From assembly GCA_025928885.1 (NCBI GenBank), contig JAICIM010000007.1, forward strand, positions 1-32,713: DNA of 32,713 bases. Direction: 5' to 3'. The stretch's first letter is position 1. The number at the start of each line of letters is the position of its first letter. Position numbers and translations under genes: made by a program. The notes under the pieces were generated by a model, which worked only from the letters and a program-made list of their open reading frames with translations, searched no databases and was not told the origin of the DNA. This document shows positions 10,865 to 25,910 of this stretch, one piece after another. The stretch is from Ktedonobacteraceae bacterium. Lineage in GTDB: Bacteria > Chloroflexota > Ktedonobacteria > Ktedonobacterales > Ktedonobacteraceae.

Positions 10865-11806
10865 ATGAACTCTCCACAAGCAGGTCAGCAAGAGCTGCTC
10901 TATTTCTGGGCTATTGGCGATCTTCATTATCGCACCATTCCAGCCTGGCACGAGCTGCATACCAAGCGCCTCTCTCTTATGTATAATGATCTCCATGCAT
11001 TGTGGAGCAGCGAAGAGGGTAGCCCCACCTTTTGCGTCTCCCCCGGAGATATTGTCGAGACCTGTATTATCGATAATCATCAATTAGCAAAAAAGTGCAT
11101 TGAGGAGCAGCTGGGATCGATCCCCTTTTATCCAGGTGTGGGCAATCATGAATACTACGGTCCCAATGGAGAAGAGCCGACCCTGATGGCTCCCACCTAT
11201 ACGCAAGTCTGGGAGAAGCCGTTGCGCTATAGCTGGCAGGCGGGCGAGACGATCTGTATCATGCTCGATTATCCCGATCCCATGACGCTGAAAGACCCCA
11301 AATATGTTTATCTTTCCGAGGAGGCATTAACTTTTCTCGATACAACTCTGACAGCCCATGCCAATCTGCCAGCGATTATTTTCCTGCACTGCCCGTTGTA
11401 TGATACTGTGTTGGATCGCGATCCCAAACGCCATCGCGACTATAACTCGCTGCAATACTTCTTCTCGCTCGAAAACTCAAAGGAGATACGCGCTATCCTG
11501 GCCCGTCATACAAACGCCTGCCTGTTGTTCAGCGGCCATACGCATTCGGGCTGGCAAGCGCCAAATCTGGTGAAAACGGAGCAACTGGGCCAGCATCCAG
11601 TCACGTTTGTACATTTGATGTCGCCCTGGTATACGGGGACCCACACAGGGCCGAGCCTCAATAAGGGGCGCGTGACCTATGTTCCCGATACGCCGAATGT
11701 TATTCCGACGTTTGCTGTGCGCCTCTTCCCGGAGCAGGCGCTGATTCGTTTACGCGATCATCAGACGCAAACGTGGTTGCAGGAGTGGCGTGTGCCGCTT
11801 AGATGA
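10865..11806 (+). CDS. Calcineurin-like metallophosphoesterase
   Basis: A 313-residue phosphoesterase with the dimetal-site motifs in order: GDLHY (about 18-22), PGDIVE, GNHEYY, LHCPLYD and SGHTHSGW. It has no signal peptide and is probably cytoplasmic; the substrate (cyclic nucleotide, phosphodiester or phosphoprotein) cannot be assigned. The frame includes an ATG at 10853, but AAGG is directly adjacent to it, so 10865, with AAGG 12 nt upstream, is preferred. The 3' end overlaps the convergent response-regulator gene by 8 nt (11799-11806), so no terminator separates the two. Confidence 0.8.
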   Translation: MNSPQAGQQELLYFWAIGDLHYRTIPAWHELHTKRLSLMYNDLHALWSSEEGSPTFCVSPGDIVETCIIDNHQLAKKCIEEQLGSIPFYPGVGNHEYYGPNGEEPTLMAPTYTQVWEKPLRYSWQAGETICIMLDYPDPMTLKDPKYVYLSEEALTFLDTTLTAHANLPAIIFLHCPLYDTVLDRDPKRHRDYNSLQYFFSLENSKEIRAILARHTNACLLFSGHTHSGWQAPNLVKTEQLGQHPVTFVHLMSPWYTGTHTGPSLNKGRVTYVPDTPNVIPTFAVRLFPEQALIRLRDHQTQTWLQEWRVPLR

Positions 11807-12530
11807 CGAAGCGATAGCCGACGCCCCAGACGGTGACGATCTTCTCTCCCAGGGGACCTAGCTTTTTGCGCAGGCGGGTGATATGAGTATCGACGGTGCG
11901 ATCAAAGCCGTCATAGTCATATCCCCACAGCTGTTGGAGCAGAAATTCGCGGCTAAATGCGCGACCGGGATGCGAGGAGAGTAGAACGATCAGATCGAAC
12001 TCTTTCGGTGTCAGATCAATCTTAGCATTATTGAGCTGCACGATGCGCTCGGCGGTATAGATGCGCAGCTGACCATGCACGATTGGTGGTGGAGCTGCTG
12101 GAGTAGCCGGAGTATTGGATGCGAACGTGTTTCCACCGGTGGCAGCTACCGGCGTCAGGCGGCTATCAAGCTCTATACGTCGCAGCAGTGCGCGTACCCG
12201 GGCCTGGACCTCGCGAATGCTAAACGGTTTGCTGATATAATCGTCGGCCCCCACTTCCAGGCCGAGGATGCGATCCACCTCCTCATTGCGTGCTGTGAGC
12301 ATAATGATCGGCGTGAGATGGTTCTGGCGGACGCGGCGGCAGACCGAAAGGCCATCCAGACCGGGCAGCATCCAGTCAAGGATGATGAGATCGGGGTGGT
12401 GCTGCTCAACCTGGCTCAGACCTATATTGCCATCAAAAGCCTGAAAGACAGTATGCCCCTCGGCCTCCAGCTCGTTGCGCAAGAGATTACAAATATCGAT
12501 TTCATCTTCAACGACAAGTATGCGTGCCAT
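11799..12530 (-). CDS. OmpR-family response regulator
   Basis: A 243-residue regulator. The receiver domain (1-120) has the acidic pocket ED (8-9), phospho-acceptor Asp52 (LIILDWMLPG), Thr79 and Lys101 (SKPF). A 30-residue Ala/Pro/Thr linker follows, then the OmpR winged helix (about 150-243: LTPKEFDLIVLLSSHPGRAFSREFLLQQLWGY, VDTHITRLRKKL, VWGVGYRF). The ATG at 12530 has AGAGGATAGG just upstream; the longer frame to 12626 lacks a ribosome binding site. It lies downstream of its kinase on the same strand with a 112-nt gap that has its own promoter-like signals. The stimulus and targets are unknown. Confidence 0.92.
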   Translation of the reverse strand: MARILVVEDEIDICNLLRNELEAEGHTVFQAFDGNIGLSQVEQHHPDLIILDWMLPGLDGLSVCRRVRQNHLTPIIMLTARNEEVDRILGLEVGADDYISKPFSIREVQARVRALLRRIELDSRLTPVAATGGNTFASNTPATPAAPPPIVHGQLRIYTAERIVQLNNAKIDLTPKEFDLIVLLSSHPGRAFSREFLLQQLWGYDYDGFDRTVDTHITRLRKKLGPLGEKIVTVWGVGYRFVI

Positions 12531-12581
12531 CGTCCTATCCTCTGTAGTGTTTACCTGGTTGCAGAGTTTGCTACTCTCCCT

Positions 12582-12615
12582 AGTGTACAACCAGATACCT
12601 CTTGTATACAAGAGG
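12582..12615 (-). promoter_or_regulatory. Promoter and 18-bp palindrome in the kinase-regulator gap
   Basis: CCTCTTGTATACAAGAGG (12598-12615) is a perfect palindrome. On the minus strand it contains TTGTAT (12606-12611), followed by an 18-nt spacer and TACACT (12582-12587), a plausible promoter for the response regulator with an operator over its -35. A weaker stem (AGAGT/ACTCT, 12563-12577) lies downstream. Confidence 0.45.
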
Positions 12616-12642
12616 GCAGGACGCATGGCGTATTGGATGATA

Positions 12643-14151
12643 TTATGCTTGCTGCACTACGTGCTGTGCTGGATGTTGCGGCGGTTGTTGAACCGTCCCT
12701 GCGATCTGGAGCAGGACGCAGAAGCGCGTTCCTTCTCCCACTTTGCTTTCAACGGTGATCGAGCCGTGCATGGCCGTGACAAAATCCTTGACGATCGATA
12801 GGCCCAGGCCGAAGCCGCCAGATGTGCGTGAGCGCGAGGCGTCTGTGCGATAAAAGCGCTCAAAGACGCGCCCGAGATCCTCTGGGGGAATGCCGATGCC
12901 GGTATCTGCGACTGAGAGGGCGAGCGCGTTTGCTCCGGCAGGTTCGAGCGTGATAGAAACGATCCCGCCGTTGGGCGTGTAAGTGATGGCATTGCGTACA
13001 AGATTGAGGAGCACCTGGATGAGCCGTTGACGATCAGCCAGGACGGGTGGCAGTCCAGGCGTGATGGCGCGAACGAGCGTGATCTGCCGGTCGCGCCGTG
13101 CCAGTGGCATCAACGTTTGATAGACCTCCTCAACTACTGTCCCGGCCTCGACCGCCGAGAGGTTCAAACTCAGCTCGTTGGCCTCCGTCTTTGCCAGAGA
13201 GAGCAGATCGTCAACGAGCGAGCCGAGCCGCACGGACTCGCGATGCACGATCGTGAGATATTTCTGCAACGCCTCCGGCGAAGGCGCTTTACTGCTATCA
13301 TCGTCGCTAAAGCCGTTCAGGAGCGATTCGAGATGGCCGCGAATGCTGGCGACCGGGGTGCGTAGCTCGTGTGAGACGTTGATGATCAGGTCGCGCCGCT
13401 TTTGATCGGCCTGTTCCGCTCTGATGCGCTGCTGCTCGGCCAGTGCTTTTGCCTCGGCCAGCCGCAAATCTTTATCGCTTAAACCCAGCATTGTACGAGC
13501 GATCTGACCCCAGGCCCAGGCCATGCCATTTGTGATATAGAGCGGCGCAAAAATGATCCCGCCACCTGTCATCGATATTTCCAACACACGACCAACAGTG
13601 AGGGGGCGCGTTGGTGGTGTGAGTTTCATCGATTGCGATATGATGGTGGAACGCGATCGGCGAGAAGTTCCCGTGATAGAAAATAGCAGAAAAACGAAGG
13701 GCGAAAAGAACGGCCCCAATGAGATCGACACCGCCAGCAGCGCCAGTACCATCGCCAGGGCGCTGAGGGTGATGCAGAATGTGATGGAGCCAATCAACAG
13801 CTTGAGGAAGAGATAGAGCAGGCTCTTCCAGGTTACGCTATTGCTGAGATGAGCGCGTACCCGGTCCCAGAGCGGCTTTGTGTTGTCAACCGGCCCTTCC
13901 ATCGGTGGGATAGGCACGTTGAGCCAGTTGATCGCCATTGTTCGCTCCATCGCCGCCAGTTTCCACCAGAGCCACATGACAAATAGTAGGATGGGAACGC
14001 CCAGCCAGATGACCAGCGTCCCTATGCCGAGCGTGAGGCCCACGGCGAGAAAGACAAAGTAGAACAGGCCCAGCGGAAAAGAGAGCAGCAGATAGCCAAT
14101 GCTGGCGTACGTTTGTTTCTGTATCGTAAGACGATGCAAGCTGGGAATCAT
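12643..14151 (-). CDS. Membrane sensor histidine kinase
   Basis: A 502-residue kinase. Two hydrophobic hairpins (about 15-65 and 110-160) form a multi-pass sensor domain resembling the 'putative sensor' module, without a large extracytoplasmic loop. A coiled linker (about 225-255) leads to the dimerisation domain with phospho-acceptor His261 (NVSHELRTP). The ATP-binding domain shows the N box (LLNLVRNAITYTPNGG), G1 (VADTGIGIP), F box (VFERFYR) and G2 (GFGLGLSIVK). The ATG at 14151 has GAGGG 8 nt upstream; the frame to TTG 14169 is less likely. It presumably phosphorylates the regulator encoded downstream. The cue is probably intramembrane or envelope stress, by inference from the topology. 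Confidence 0.9.
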   Translation of the reverse strand: MIPSLHRLTIQKQTYASIGYLLLSFPLGLFYFVFLAVGLTLGIGTLVIWLGVPILLFVMWLWWKLAAMERTMAINWLNVPIPPMEGPVDNTKPLWDRVRAHLSNSVTWKSLLYLFLKLLIGSITFCITLSALAMVLALLAVSISLGPFFSPFVFLLFSITGTSRRSRSTIISQSMKLTPPTRPLTVGRVLEISMTGGGIIFAPLYITNGMAWAWGQIARTMLGLSDKDLRLAEAKALAEQQRIRAEQADQKRRDLIINVSHELRTPVASIRGHLESLLNGFSDDDSSKAPSPEALQKYLTIVHRESVRLGSLVDDLLSLAKTEANELSLNLSAVEAGTVVEEVYQTLMPLARRDRQITLVRAITPGLPPVLADRQRLIQVLLNLVRNAITYTPNGGIVSITLEPAGANALALSVADTGIGIPPEDLGRVFERFYRTDASRSRTSGGFGLGLSIVKDFVTAMHGSITVESKVGEGTRFCVLLQIAGTVQQPPQHPAQHVVQQA

Positions 14152-14214
14152 AGAACGGCCCTCGACCAATCAATCTATCGAACAATCAAGATACTTTCAA
14201 TGCTTTTTTCTACC

Positions 14215-14264
14215 TGTTACAGGATAGCACGTGGTTGTTGATAGCATATGATCAAAGTGTTACA
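14215..14264. promoter_or_regulatory. Two TGTTACA boxes upstream of the kinase gene
   Basis: TGTTACA occurs at 14215-14221 (inside the palindrome CTGTTACAG) and at 14258-14264, 43 nt apart. They could be regulator boxes in the kinase promoter region. This is tentative. Confidence 0.25.
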
Positions 14265-14310
14265 AAACTGTGACGATTTCGCATCACCATTGCAGGGCAT
14301 TGATACAGAC

Positions 14311-14348
14311 AAAAAGAAGCTCGGCGGAACGTACCCGCCGAGCTTCTT
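14311..14348 (-). terminator. Intrinsic terminator for minus-strand transcription
   Basis: A 14-bp stem (14314-14327 with 14335-14348, core GAAGCTCGGCGG) has a 7-nt loop and is followed on the minus strand by TTTTTGTC. It ends transcripts coming from the aldolase gene about 470 nt upstream and insulates the kinase gene. Confidence 0.8.
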
Positions 14349-14515
14349 TCTAAGACATCCCCTCCTCCATCGTCCCCAATAAATTCCACGATACACGTGT
14401 GAAAGTGATCCTGTCAGTCCTCCCCCACTCAACATACTGTACCGTCCTCTATCCCGTTTCCCCATCACTGCCACCCCAGGAGATCAGAAGACAGCACTCC
14501 TGGTATACTGGCAAG

Positions 14516-14708
14516 TTCTTGCACACCCCTCTTCTCCCTCTGCCATCCTTTAACCATGACCGCATTTCATCTCTAAAAATAAATAACCTACCCGCATCTT
14601 CTACTACCATCTCCAACCGCATCTTCCACCCTCGATCATGAGCAGAACTGTTCCTCCACTAACCGCACTTCCATCATTTCCCCTGGTGCCATCTACCAGG
14701 TTTTTTTC
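14516..14708 (+). ncRNA. Candidate small RNA (unproven)
   Basis: The predicted start follows TGG-TATACT at 14501-14509, and the end is the terminator at 14682-14707, giving about 190 nt. The sequence is C/U-rich and carries CCGCAYYTTC-like motifs starting at 14560, 14592, 14617 and 14663. No family is recognised. The call rests on promoter-like and terminator signals on the same strand with no ORF between them. Confidence 0.3.
14682..14707 (+). terminator. Plus-strand intrinsic terminator without an upstream gene
   Basis: CCTGGT (14682-14687) pairs with ACCAGG (14695-14700) and is followed by seven T (14701-14707). There is no plus-strand gene upstream, which is why a small RNA is suspected. 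Confidence 0.6.
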
Positions 14709-14821
14709 CTCTCGTTTCCTACGCCCATACTATAACATAGAGTCATGACGAACCCATGAATTGATAAGCGTGTATGATGAACAAAAATTCATCTAGAGAG
14801 AAGTGCGGCAATGCATTCACA

Positions 14822-15487
14822 TTACAGATTTTTCATCCGTTGCCAATCTTGCGTAAACTTCTCTACCGCTCGCTCGCTTTCAGGATCTGTCAGGAGGGAG
14901 AGCAGGACCTCTGGCGGCACAGTCAGATCGTGTGCGCCAGCCTGGAGAGCCTCGGCAGCCTCCAAAGACGACTTGATACTTGCGACCAGGATGCGCGAGG
15001 TGAGTTGCTGGCTCTGAAAGAGTTTGGCTATCTGGGCAATGCGTTCGCTGGCATTGACGCCCGAGCGGGCGAGGCGATTGTAATATGGAATGATGAAGTC
15101 GGCCTGGATCATGGCCGCACAATACGCCTGGGCAACCGAGGTGACGGCGGTAAATGCCACGCGATGCCCCTGTTCTTTCAAGCTGCGAGCCACGCGCATC
15201 CCAGTCTTCGTCATTGGAATTTTGGGGATGACGCGCTGTGGTTCGGTCTCGATATACGCGCGTGCCTCCTGCAGCATCTCCCCTTCCCTGGTCGCCCCCG
15301 GCTGAATAAAAACAAGCCCGGATTGTTTGCTCAACAGTGCGGAGAGGAGTTGTGATGGTGTGAGTCGTTGCCCGCGTTCGCTAGCCGCCAGCATAATCGA
15401 CGGATTGGTTGTAACACCAGCCAGAGGCACCGTGCGTCCAACCTCAACGATATCATCAAGGTATCCACAATCGATGTAGAGGGCCAT
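14822..15487 (-). CDS. Transaldolase / fructose-6-phosphate aldolase-like
   Basis: A 221-residue single-domain TIM-barrel aldolase of the short TalC/MipB transaldolase type. GVTTNPS (24-30) and the Schiff-base lysine in IPKIPMT (Lys89) are present, with the barrel strands RVAFTAVTSVAQAYCAA and RILVASIKS. It moves or cleaves a dihydroxyacetone unit in sugar-phosphate metabolism; transaldolase and fructose-6-phosphate aldolase activities cannot be separated by motif alone. AGGAG precedes the ATG. It is divergent from the MaoC gene. Its message probably ends at the terminator 14311-14348. Confidence 0.85.
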   Translation of the reverse strand: MALYIDCGYLDDIVEVGRTVPLAGVTTNPSIMLAASERGQRLTPSQLLSALLSKQSGLVFIQPGATREGEMLQEARAYIETEPQRVIPKIPMTKTGMRVARSLKEQGHRVAFTAVTSVAQAYCAAMIQADFIIPYYNRLARSGVNASERIAQIAKLFQSQQLTSRILVASIKSSLEAAEALQAGAHDLTVPPEVLLSLLTDPESERAVEKFTQDWQRMKNL

Positions 15488-25609: not shown

Positions 25610-25695
25610 GGGCGGTTGCTGAAATTGGTAGACAGGGCAGACTTAGGATCTGTTGGTGATGAACCGTGAGAGTTCGAGTCTCTCACCGCCCACCA
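25610..25695 (+). tRNA. tRNA-Leu (anticodon UAG)
   Basis: Acceptor arms GGGCGGT/ACCGCCC close the molecule. The anticodon loop CTTAGGA (25642-25648) gives UAG, which reads CUA and related leucine codons. A long variable arm (class II) and the T-loop GTTCGAGTC are present. The 3' CCA is encoded (25693-25695). Length 86 nt including CCA. Confidence 0.93.
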
Positions 25696-25838: not shown

Positions 25839-25910
25839 GCGGGAGTGGCTCAGTGGTAGAGCACTTCCTTGCCAAGGAAGATGTCGCGGGTTCGAATCCC
25901 GTCTCCCGCT
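25839..25910 (+). tRNA. tRNA-Gly (anticodon GCC)
   Basis: Acceptor arms GCGGGAG/CTCCCGC, a D arm with GCTCAGTGGTAGAGC, anticodon loop TTGCCAA (25869-25875) giving GCC, and T-arm GCGGGTTCGAATCCCGT. The CCA end is not encoded (the genome reads CCG), unlike the neighbouring tRNA-Leu. Probably cotranscribed with it. Confidence 0.93.

Follow-up and report, generated by a model that had tools for sequence, protein, structure and literature searches.

The described RNAs that come closest to the locus reported here are CsrB and the RsmX-Y-Z RNAs (PrrB_RsmZ, RF00166). Like them, our locus is intergenic, has a repeated motif and an intrinsic terminator, appears to have a promoter of the response-regulator type and lies in a genome that encodes CsrA. 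It differs from them in that it belongs to another phylum, GGA is not specifically enriched, the motif is GGUGG(U/A)(A/G)G and the RNA is longer in most genera. ROOL, GOLLD, OLE and raiA are large bacterial RNAs in Rfam that have a strong shared fold within each family. They resemble our locus in being long and structured and in having an unknown or poorly known function, but the body of the RNA described here changes quickly and none of the four was matched in cmscan. CrcZ of Pseudomonas is about 400 nt long and has a CA/A-rich motif; the size, a two-component type of control (probable for our locus) and a proposed titration are common to both, whereas the motif here is G-rich. In the available parts of the source, CrcZ is described as a sponge of Hfq/Crc under CbrB, while Hfq (PF17209) was found in 0 of the 29 genomes of the family studied here.

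The DNA that was analyzed (the window) is a 32,713 nucleotide stretch from a Ktedonobacteraceae genome of 6.6 Mb in 764 contigs, and it was compared with relatives in the class Ktedonobacteria (Chloroflexota), among others Ktedonobacter, Ktedonospora, Ktedonosporobacter, Tengunoibacter, Dictyobacter and Thermogemmatispora. An initial annotation had read a C/U-rich stretch at 14516-14708, between a histidine kinase gene (start ~14169) and tal (end 14822), both on the minus strand, as a plus-strand small RNA. The features on which this reading was based are real, but conservation points to an element on the opposite strand, and the C/U-rich stretch is most likely the complement of a real, undescribed G-rich non-coding RNA that, together with its own conserved control region, is kept across a family of bacteria from soil and hot springs. 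The features of the locus are:

14822..15487, minus strand: tal, transaldolase / fructose-6-phosphate aldolase-like gene (PF00923, E 3.2e-30), upstream of the predicted RNA
14729-14837, minus strand: conserved promoter region, directly after tal
14822..14837, minus strand: distal element GATGAAAAATCTGTAA (GATGAA-N6-TGTAA), also the last codons and stop of tal
14777..14792, minus strand: ATGAA-N6-TTCAT, upstream inverted half-sites
14745..14760, minus strand: TTCAT-N6-GTCAT, an 11-nt direct repeat 10 nt upstream of the -10, putative OmpR/PhoB-type response-regulator box
14729..14737, minus strand: extended -10, TGTTATAGT
14309..14722, minus strand: predicted non-coding RNA, ~410 nt, G 0.37, C 0.13, marked by its GC skew and fold z, with ORF length as in shuffles
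14680..14722, minus strand: RNA 5' end, GUA.. followed by an A-rich leader and ACCUGGU
14306..14348, minus strand: intrinsic terminator, 14-bp stem AAGAAGCTCGGCGG/CCGCCGAGCTTCTT followed by TTTGTCTGT
12643-14169, minus strand: histidine kinase gene, downstream of the predicted RNA
11799-12626, minus strand: OmpR-type response regulator gene, downstream of the predicted RNA
14501..14509, plus strand: extended -10 of the initial annotation; no conservation seen, not counted as part of the element
14682..14707, plus strand: terminator-like hairpin of the initial annotation; read on the minus strand, it follows A7 close to the RNA 5' end
14560..14569, minus strand: repeat 1, in minus sense TGAAATGCGG
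14592..14601, minus strand: repeat 2, in minus sense GAAGATGCGG
14617..14626, minus strand: repeat 3, in minus sense GAAGATGCGG
14663..14672, minus strand: repeat 4, in minus sense GGAAGTGCGG

Nowhere in the window is the GC skew as strong as at the predicted RNA: among 1293 windows of 400 nt, the 12 with the highest skew are all located at this place. Across 18 RNAs (our own and those of relatives) the G-C skew is 0.29-0.62, except for two from Thermogemmatispora (0.13 and 0.14), and for the 300 nt before the promoter it is -0.25 to +0.06. A protein-coding reading was rejected, as the longest ORFs of 17 RNAs are as long as in shuffles and a G run in Thermogemmatispora changes its length by 1 nt. 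For the statistics on composition, motifs and fold, the RNA ends were placed manually, guided by skew and terminators, and they vary slightly between analyses; from the 23 full-length RNAs, 18 were used for motif counts and for skew, 17 for the ORF/repeat test and 16 for the GG-tract test, with near-identical or truncated Thermogemmatispora sequences and one RNA with an insertion (G020) left out, together with one Ktedonobacter in the GG-tract/fold set. In the RNA with the insertion, from Ktedonobacter sp. SOSP1-85 (G020, L016), ~450 nt of ordinary composition, perhaps a mobile element, follow position ~+40.

Both ends of the RNA recur among the relatives. The consensus of 23 aligned 5' ends is GTaAc, an A-rich part and CCctGG. 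RNA-sense intrinsic terminators were found in 18 of the 21 genomes scanned, two of them being doubtful (weak in G009, beyond the expected end in G024), and a GAAGC..GCUUC stem base is common to many of these terminators, in several other genera. A long hairpin, AAGCCTGA..TCAGGCTTC, with a tail too T-poor for the terminator scan, stands where the end is expected in G017, G024 and G026, and in G021 the scan found none. RNA lengths range from ~217 nt (Thermogemmatispora) to 990 nt (Ktedonobacter), G020 left out. We consider it very probable that the locus is a non-coding RNA gene on the minus strand. The non-coding RNA gene with repeated motifs that the initial annotation had proposed is thus well supported, but on the minus strand, at ~410 nt and not 190, and as a G-rich and not a C/U-rich RNA.

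The control region of the locus is conserved in relatives. When the whole intergenic stretch was searched as DNA against 61 genomes, our own included, one conserved block was found besides terminator-like matches, at 14704-14792 of the window; it was matched in 8 of the 61 genomes (again with our own), is located just 3' of tal and reads as a minus-strand promoter. An alignment of 21 promoters gives the order ATGAA-N6-TTCA(T), TTCA(T)-N6-(G)TCA(T), 10 nt and TAT..T, with 20 invariant columns; ATGAA and the TAT..T of the -10 are invariant in 21 of 21 and the TTCA(T) of the inverted half-sites nearly so. In the window the layout is TTCAT-N6-GTCAT, then 10 nt, then TATAGT. R1, a model built from the 21 aligned promoters using their sequence only, matches the window at 14722-14793 (E 1.3e-17), the window being one of the 21 training loci that match by construction; outside the training set it matches G008 (E 3.4e-9), G014 (6.3e-7), G005 (3.3e-4) and G002:C233 (3.9e-4).

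Farther upstream, 24 of 25 RNA loci carry [AG]ATGAA-N6/7-[TG]TAA at position -109/-110, counted from where the -10 ends (in G002 from the end of the R1 match), and the 25th, G006, has by eye the one-letter variant CATGAAAATGTTGTAA. In most loci this distal element coincides with the final codons of tal. It is also kept at loci in which no tal was found (G005, G008, G011, G014), at loci with a tal that stops farther upstream (G006, G021), and in G002, so that protein coding does not account for its conservation. It was absent from 8 of 8 other primary-scanned hits and from the other 19 second-site hits scanned.

Direct repeats of 11 nt that lie ~10 nt upstream of the -10 are the layout of OmpR/PhoB-type activator sites, and this is the layout found here, with 11-nt repeats 10 nt before the -10. 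A point against the reading is that no good -35 precedes this -10, a lack to be expected only of a promoter with an activator. Box plus -10 was matched 46 times in 7 genomes, while the reversed pattern was matched 6 times. Judged from this arrangement, the RNA is probably controlled by an OmpR/PhoB-type response regulator. The neighboring kinase and regulator have their best scores against the PnpS/PhoR and PhoB models, below cut-off, and the kinase lies 3' of the RNA on the same strand in G000, G011, G021 and G026, both being neighbors of the RNA in some genera; they are at most possible controllers of it. A phosphate-regulon promoter was considered, as the 11-nt repeat is pho-box-like. It was dropped, since phosphate-binding-protein loci carry TTAAC-N6-TTAAC instead: this was found in 8 of the 15 loci scanned, and the TTCAT box with spaced -10 in none of these 15 (pst-type) loci. 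At L117, L119, L121-L125 and L127, all phosphate-binding-protein genes, TTAAC-N6-TTAAC is located ~270-350 nt upstream of the matched domain, and it is likely the Pho box of Ktedonobacteria.

The same promoter type was also found at other sites. TTCAT boxes upstream of other genes show no clear theme except for two response-regulator genes: at L185 and L193, TTCAT-N6-TTCAT/GTCAT lies just before OmpR-type response-regulator genes (L193 being divergent from an ABC transporter), which are possible autoregulated systems. At second R1 sites (L077, L079-L083, L085-L087, L091-L094) a TTCATACAATGTTCAT-like box precedes the gene of a short DUF6788 protein, a family assignment that was tested for the copy of our own genome; this gene is followed by nrdR and is usually divergent from an S30AE/ribosome-hibernation-type gene. 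An R1-type promoter is also present at L089. In Thermogemmatispora (L078, L088, L090, L095) a second R1-type promoter lies before another G-rich stretch, which is divergent from an orotate phosphoribosyltransferase-like gene (named by eye) and is possibly a second RNA of this kind.

Within the family the RNA locus was counted in 25 of 29 genomes. In 23 it is full-length (the 21 training genomes together with G005 and G008), and in the two genomes of genus g3 (G002, G014) the RNA is short, roughly 80 nt. The locus was not found in G001, an assembly of 720 contigs whose genus-mate G013 has it, or in three genomes of genus g4. Across the family the RNAs are mostly G-rich and non-coding, with repeated GGUGG(U/A)(A/G)G. 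In the order outside the family there was no convincing R1 match, and a G-rich stretch followed tal in 0 of the 9 loci examined. In the window, Rfam 15 at gathering threshold gave no family beyond two tRNAs, whose genes lie at 25610-25692 and 25839-25910 on the plus strand, and permissive thresholds gave chance matches only. The literature search gave no report of this RNA, the available part of PMC2864571 included; PMC6776052, in the part available, mentions a Thermogemmatispora strain, and the RNA-seq described there is of Thermomicrobium roseum.

The constraint on the RNA body differs between genera. Six Thermogemmatispora genomes share an average identity of 98.0% over the initial 180 nt of the RNA; the corresponding values are 90.4% for tal (its last 500 nt), 83.5% for the promoter and, in four genomes, 36.1% for the 200 nt past the terminator. 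Promoter and body (over 180 nt) are 92.9% vs 68.1% identical in the Ktedonobacter group and 85.3% vs 66.2% in Dictyobacter, with three genomes in each case. The fold of the minus-strand RNA in the window has a z of -3.20, and across nine RNAs the values are mixed, from -4.12 to +0.35, which suggests that a large part of the body may have a loose fold. Hairpins CGUUCUUGC..GCAAGAACG with G-rich loops of ~28 nt recur in the Dictyobacter group. In the alignment of five genomes, the second half of which is uncertain, 91.0% of the cells are paired, against 86.4 +/- 0.9 with the 3' letters shuffled (0/500) and at most 46.5% with the partners slid; the structure was predicted on the tested alignment itself, which biases this pairing test in its favor. 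Two-sided pair changes number 6, against 2.5 in shuffled alignments, and two of six slid versions also reach 6.

Three other readings of the locus depend on its strand and its neighbors. The plus-strand small RNA of ~190 nt that was originally proposed can point to an extended -10 (TG-G-TATACT) at 14501-14509, to a stretch whose composition at 14516-14708 is indeed C/U-rich (A 0.22, C 0.38, G 0.09, T 0.31) and to a hairpin, CCTGGTGCCATCTACCAGG, with seven T at 14682-14707, all of which are present; terminator-like sites in 14150-14850 number 2, against 0.3 +/- 0.5 in shuffles. Yet the sigma-70 match scan scored nothing at this -10, the C-richness begins ahead of the promoter (C 0.47 in 14410-14470) and the plus-strand RNA folds no better than its shuffles (z -0.73, 43/200 as good). 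The seven T are complementary to an A-rich leader with CC(C/U)UGG after it, an arrangement seen again at the 5' ends of minus-strand RNAs in relatives. The four repeats reported at 14560, 14592, 14617 and 14663 do share CCGCAYYT, but the full CCGCAYYTTC is exact only at 14592 and 14617, with one mismatch at 14663 and two at 14560. An 8-mer of the same degenerate form occurs four times in 3 of 1000 dinucleotide-keeping shuffles, and four-fold recurrence of any 8-mer with two Y/R positions was seen in 14 of 500, so the recurrence exceeds chance modestly. The repeats are not conserved as such in relatives, an outcome that had been named beforehand as refuting the proposal: ARRTGCGG occurs four times in this RNA and 0-1 times in each of 16 other genomes. 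The absence of the repeats as repeats in relatives leaves the suggested pairing of a C/U-rich RNA to purine-rich ribosome binding sites unsupported. With the conservation sitting on the minus-strand promoter, on the distal element at its fixed distance and on minus-strand terminators, a plus-strand RNA is very improbable. Slightly less credible still is a long 5' leader or attenuator of the histidine kinase gene: the kinase is the next gene on the same strand in the four genomes named above, but the next gene found is on the opposite strand in G005, G007 and G008 (a metallophosphoesterase gene) and in G010 and G014 (an FG-GAP gene), and a terminator separates RNA and kinase. The chance that the RNA is the 3' UTR of tal, or a decaying region with a composition bias only, is equally slight; it mostly adjoins tal, but it has a promoter of its own, is kept at the four loci without tal and is 98% identical in Thermogemmatispora.

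The remaining readings accept the minus-strand RNA and concern what it binds. In 18 RNAs, GTGG[TA][AG][AG]G was counted 50 times against 10.9 +/- 3.2 in dinucleotide shuffles, GTGGNAG 46 times against 13.4, GTGG 271 times against 155.1 and GGAAGTG 23 times against 3.2; the RNA of the window adds few of these (0, 2, 5 and 1, respectively). The earlier idea of a partner bound in several copies survives in altered form, as a motif array on the minus-strand RNA, and a sponge or motif-array function falls slightly short of an even chance. One possible option is that the RNA is a CsrA-specific sponge, a separately evolved functional analogue of CsrB/RsmZ that would bind CsrA dimers through many GGA. 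CsrA is encoded in 26 of the 29 family genomes, the window's own included, and has a VREE stretch in all 9 sequences read, of 10 tried. The three genomes that lack CsrA are one genus and lack the RNA too, a co-absence that is one clade and a single evolutionary event; outside the family, CsrA was found in 15 of 18 genomes of the same order, where no convincing RNA was found. FliW was found in 0 of the 29 family genomes, and with Hfq missing as well, CsrA is an obvious protein to consider as the one titrated. GGA has a density of 1.9-5.4 per 100 nt (the Thermogemmatispora RNA has only 4 GGA) and is more often unpaired (0.60) than the average (0.42). Against this, neither GGA (389 vs 366.5 +/- 12.2) nor ANGGA (81 vs 90.0) exceeds dinucleotide expectation in the 18 RNAs, the enriched motif is GGUGG(U/A)(A/G)G, and the PrrB_RsmZ model gives 15 bits in the window against a gathering score of 44 (E 0.49), with no match at E <= 1 in the loci of 11 relatives. 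CsrA as the partner is a guess that the motif statistics do not single out, and we regard both it and the CsrA-specific sponge as rather unlikely. A little less probable again is that the RNA pairs through GGUGG-type motifs with C-rich (CYUACCAC-like) RNA stretches, or forms two-tier G-quadruplexes that recruit proteins. GG-repeat tracts fit for such quadruplexes number 82 in 16 RNAs, against 58.2 +/- 5.5 in shuffles, and the observed number of bases in them was reached by 0 of 200 shuffles; the absence of Hfq speaks against pairing, although many Hfq-less bacteria do use sRNAs.

The explanation that we prefer is an activator-switched, G-rich minus-strand sponge RNA, a proposal to which, taken as a whole, we give an even chance. 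The gene would run from about 14722 to 14309, and an OmpR/PhoB-type activator would bind the TTCAT half-sites between -110 and the -10 element and switch it on. The product would be a long, loosely structured, G-rich RNA, with hairpins that carry GG-rich single strands and with repeats of about GGUGG(U/A)(A/G)G. It may thereby present many copies of a short binding motif and titrate an RNA-binding protein, with CsrA as a candidate, or a set of RNAs. That the body changes fast while promoter, 5' end and terminator stay fixed is in keeping with an RNA that presents many motif copies.

A wider and more speculative reading, which we think improbable but worth stating, is that these RNAs are a new, Ktedonobacteria-specific class of regulatory RNA, fixed in the promoter and variable in the body, whose GGUGG(U/A)(A/G)G array would serve as the principal antagonist of either CsrA or a GGUGG-binding protein. 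In this lineage, which lacks Hfq and FliW, the logic of the Csr sponge would then have arisen independently and with another recognition motif. The locus also has a control region that extends into the 3' end of a protein-coding gene and is retained where this gene has disappeared from the site. With CsrA present and neither FliW nor Hfq found, the question arises of what controls CsrA outside the proteobacteria and the flagellated firmicutes. If it is transcribed as predicted, the locus would represent a previously undescribed family of RNA genes in Chloroflexota, a phylum with hardly any known regulatory RNAs.
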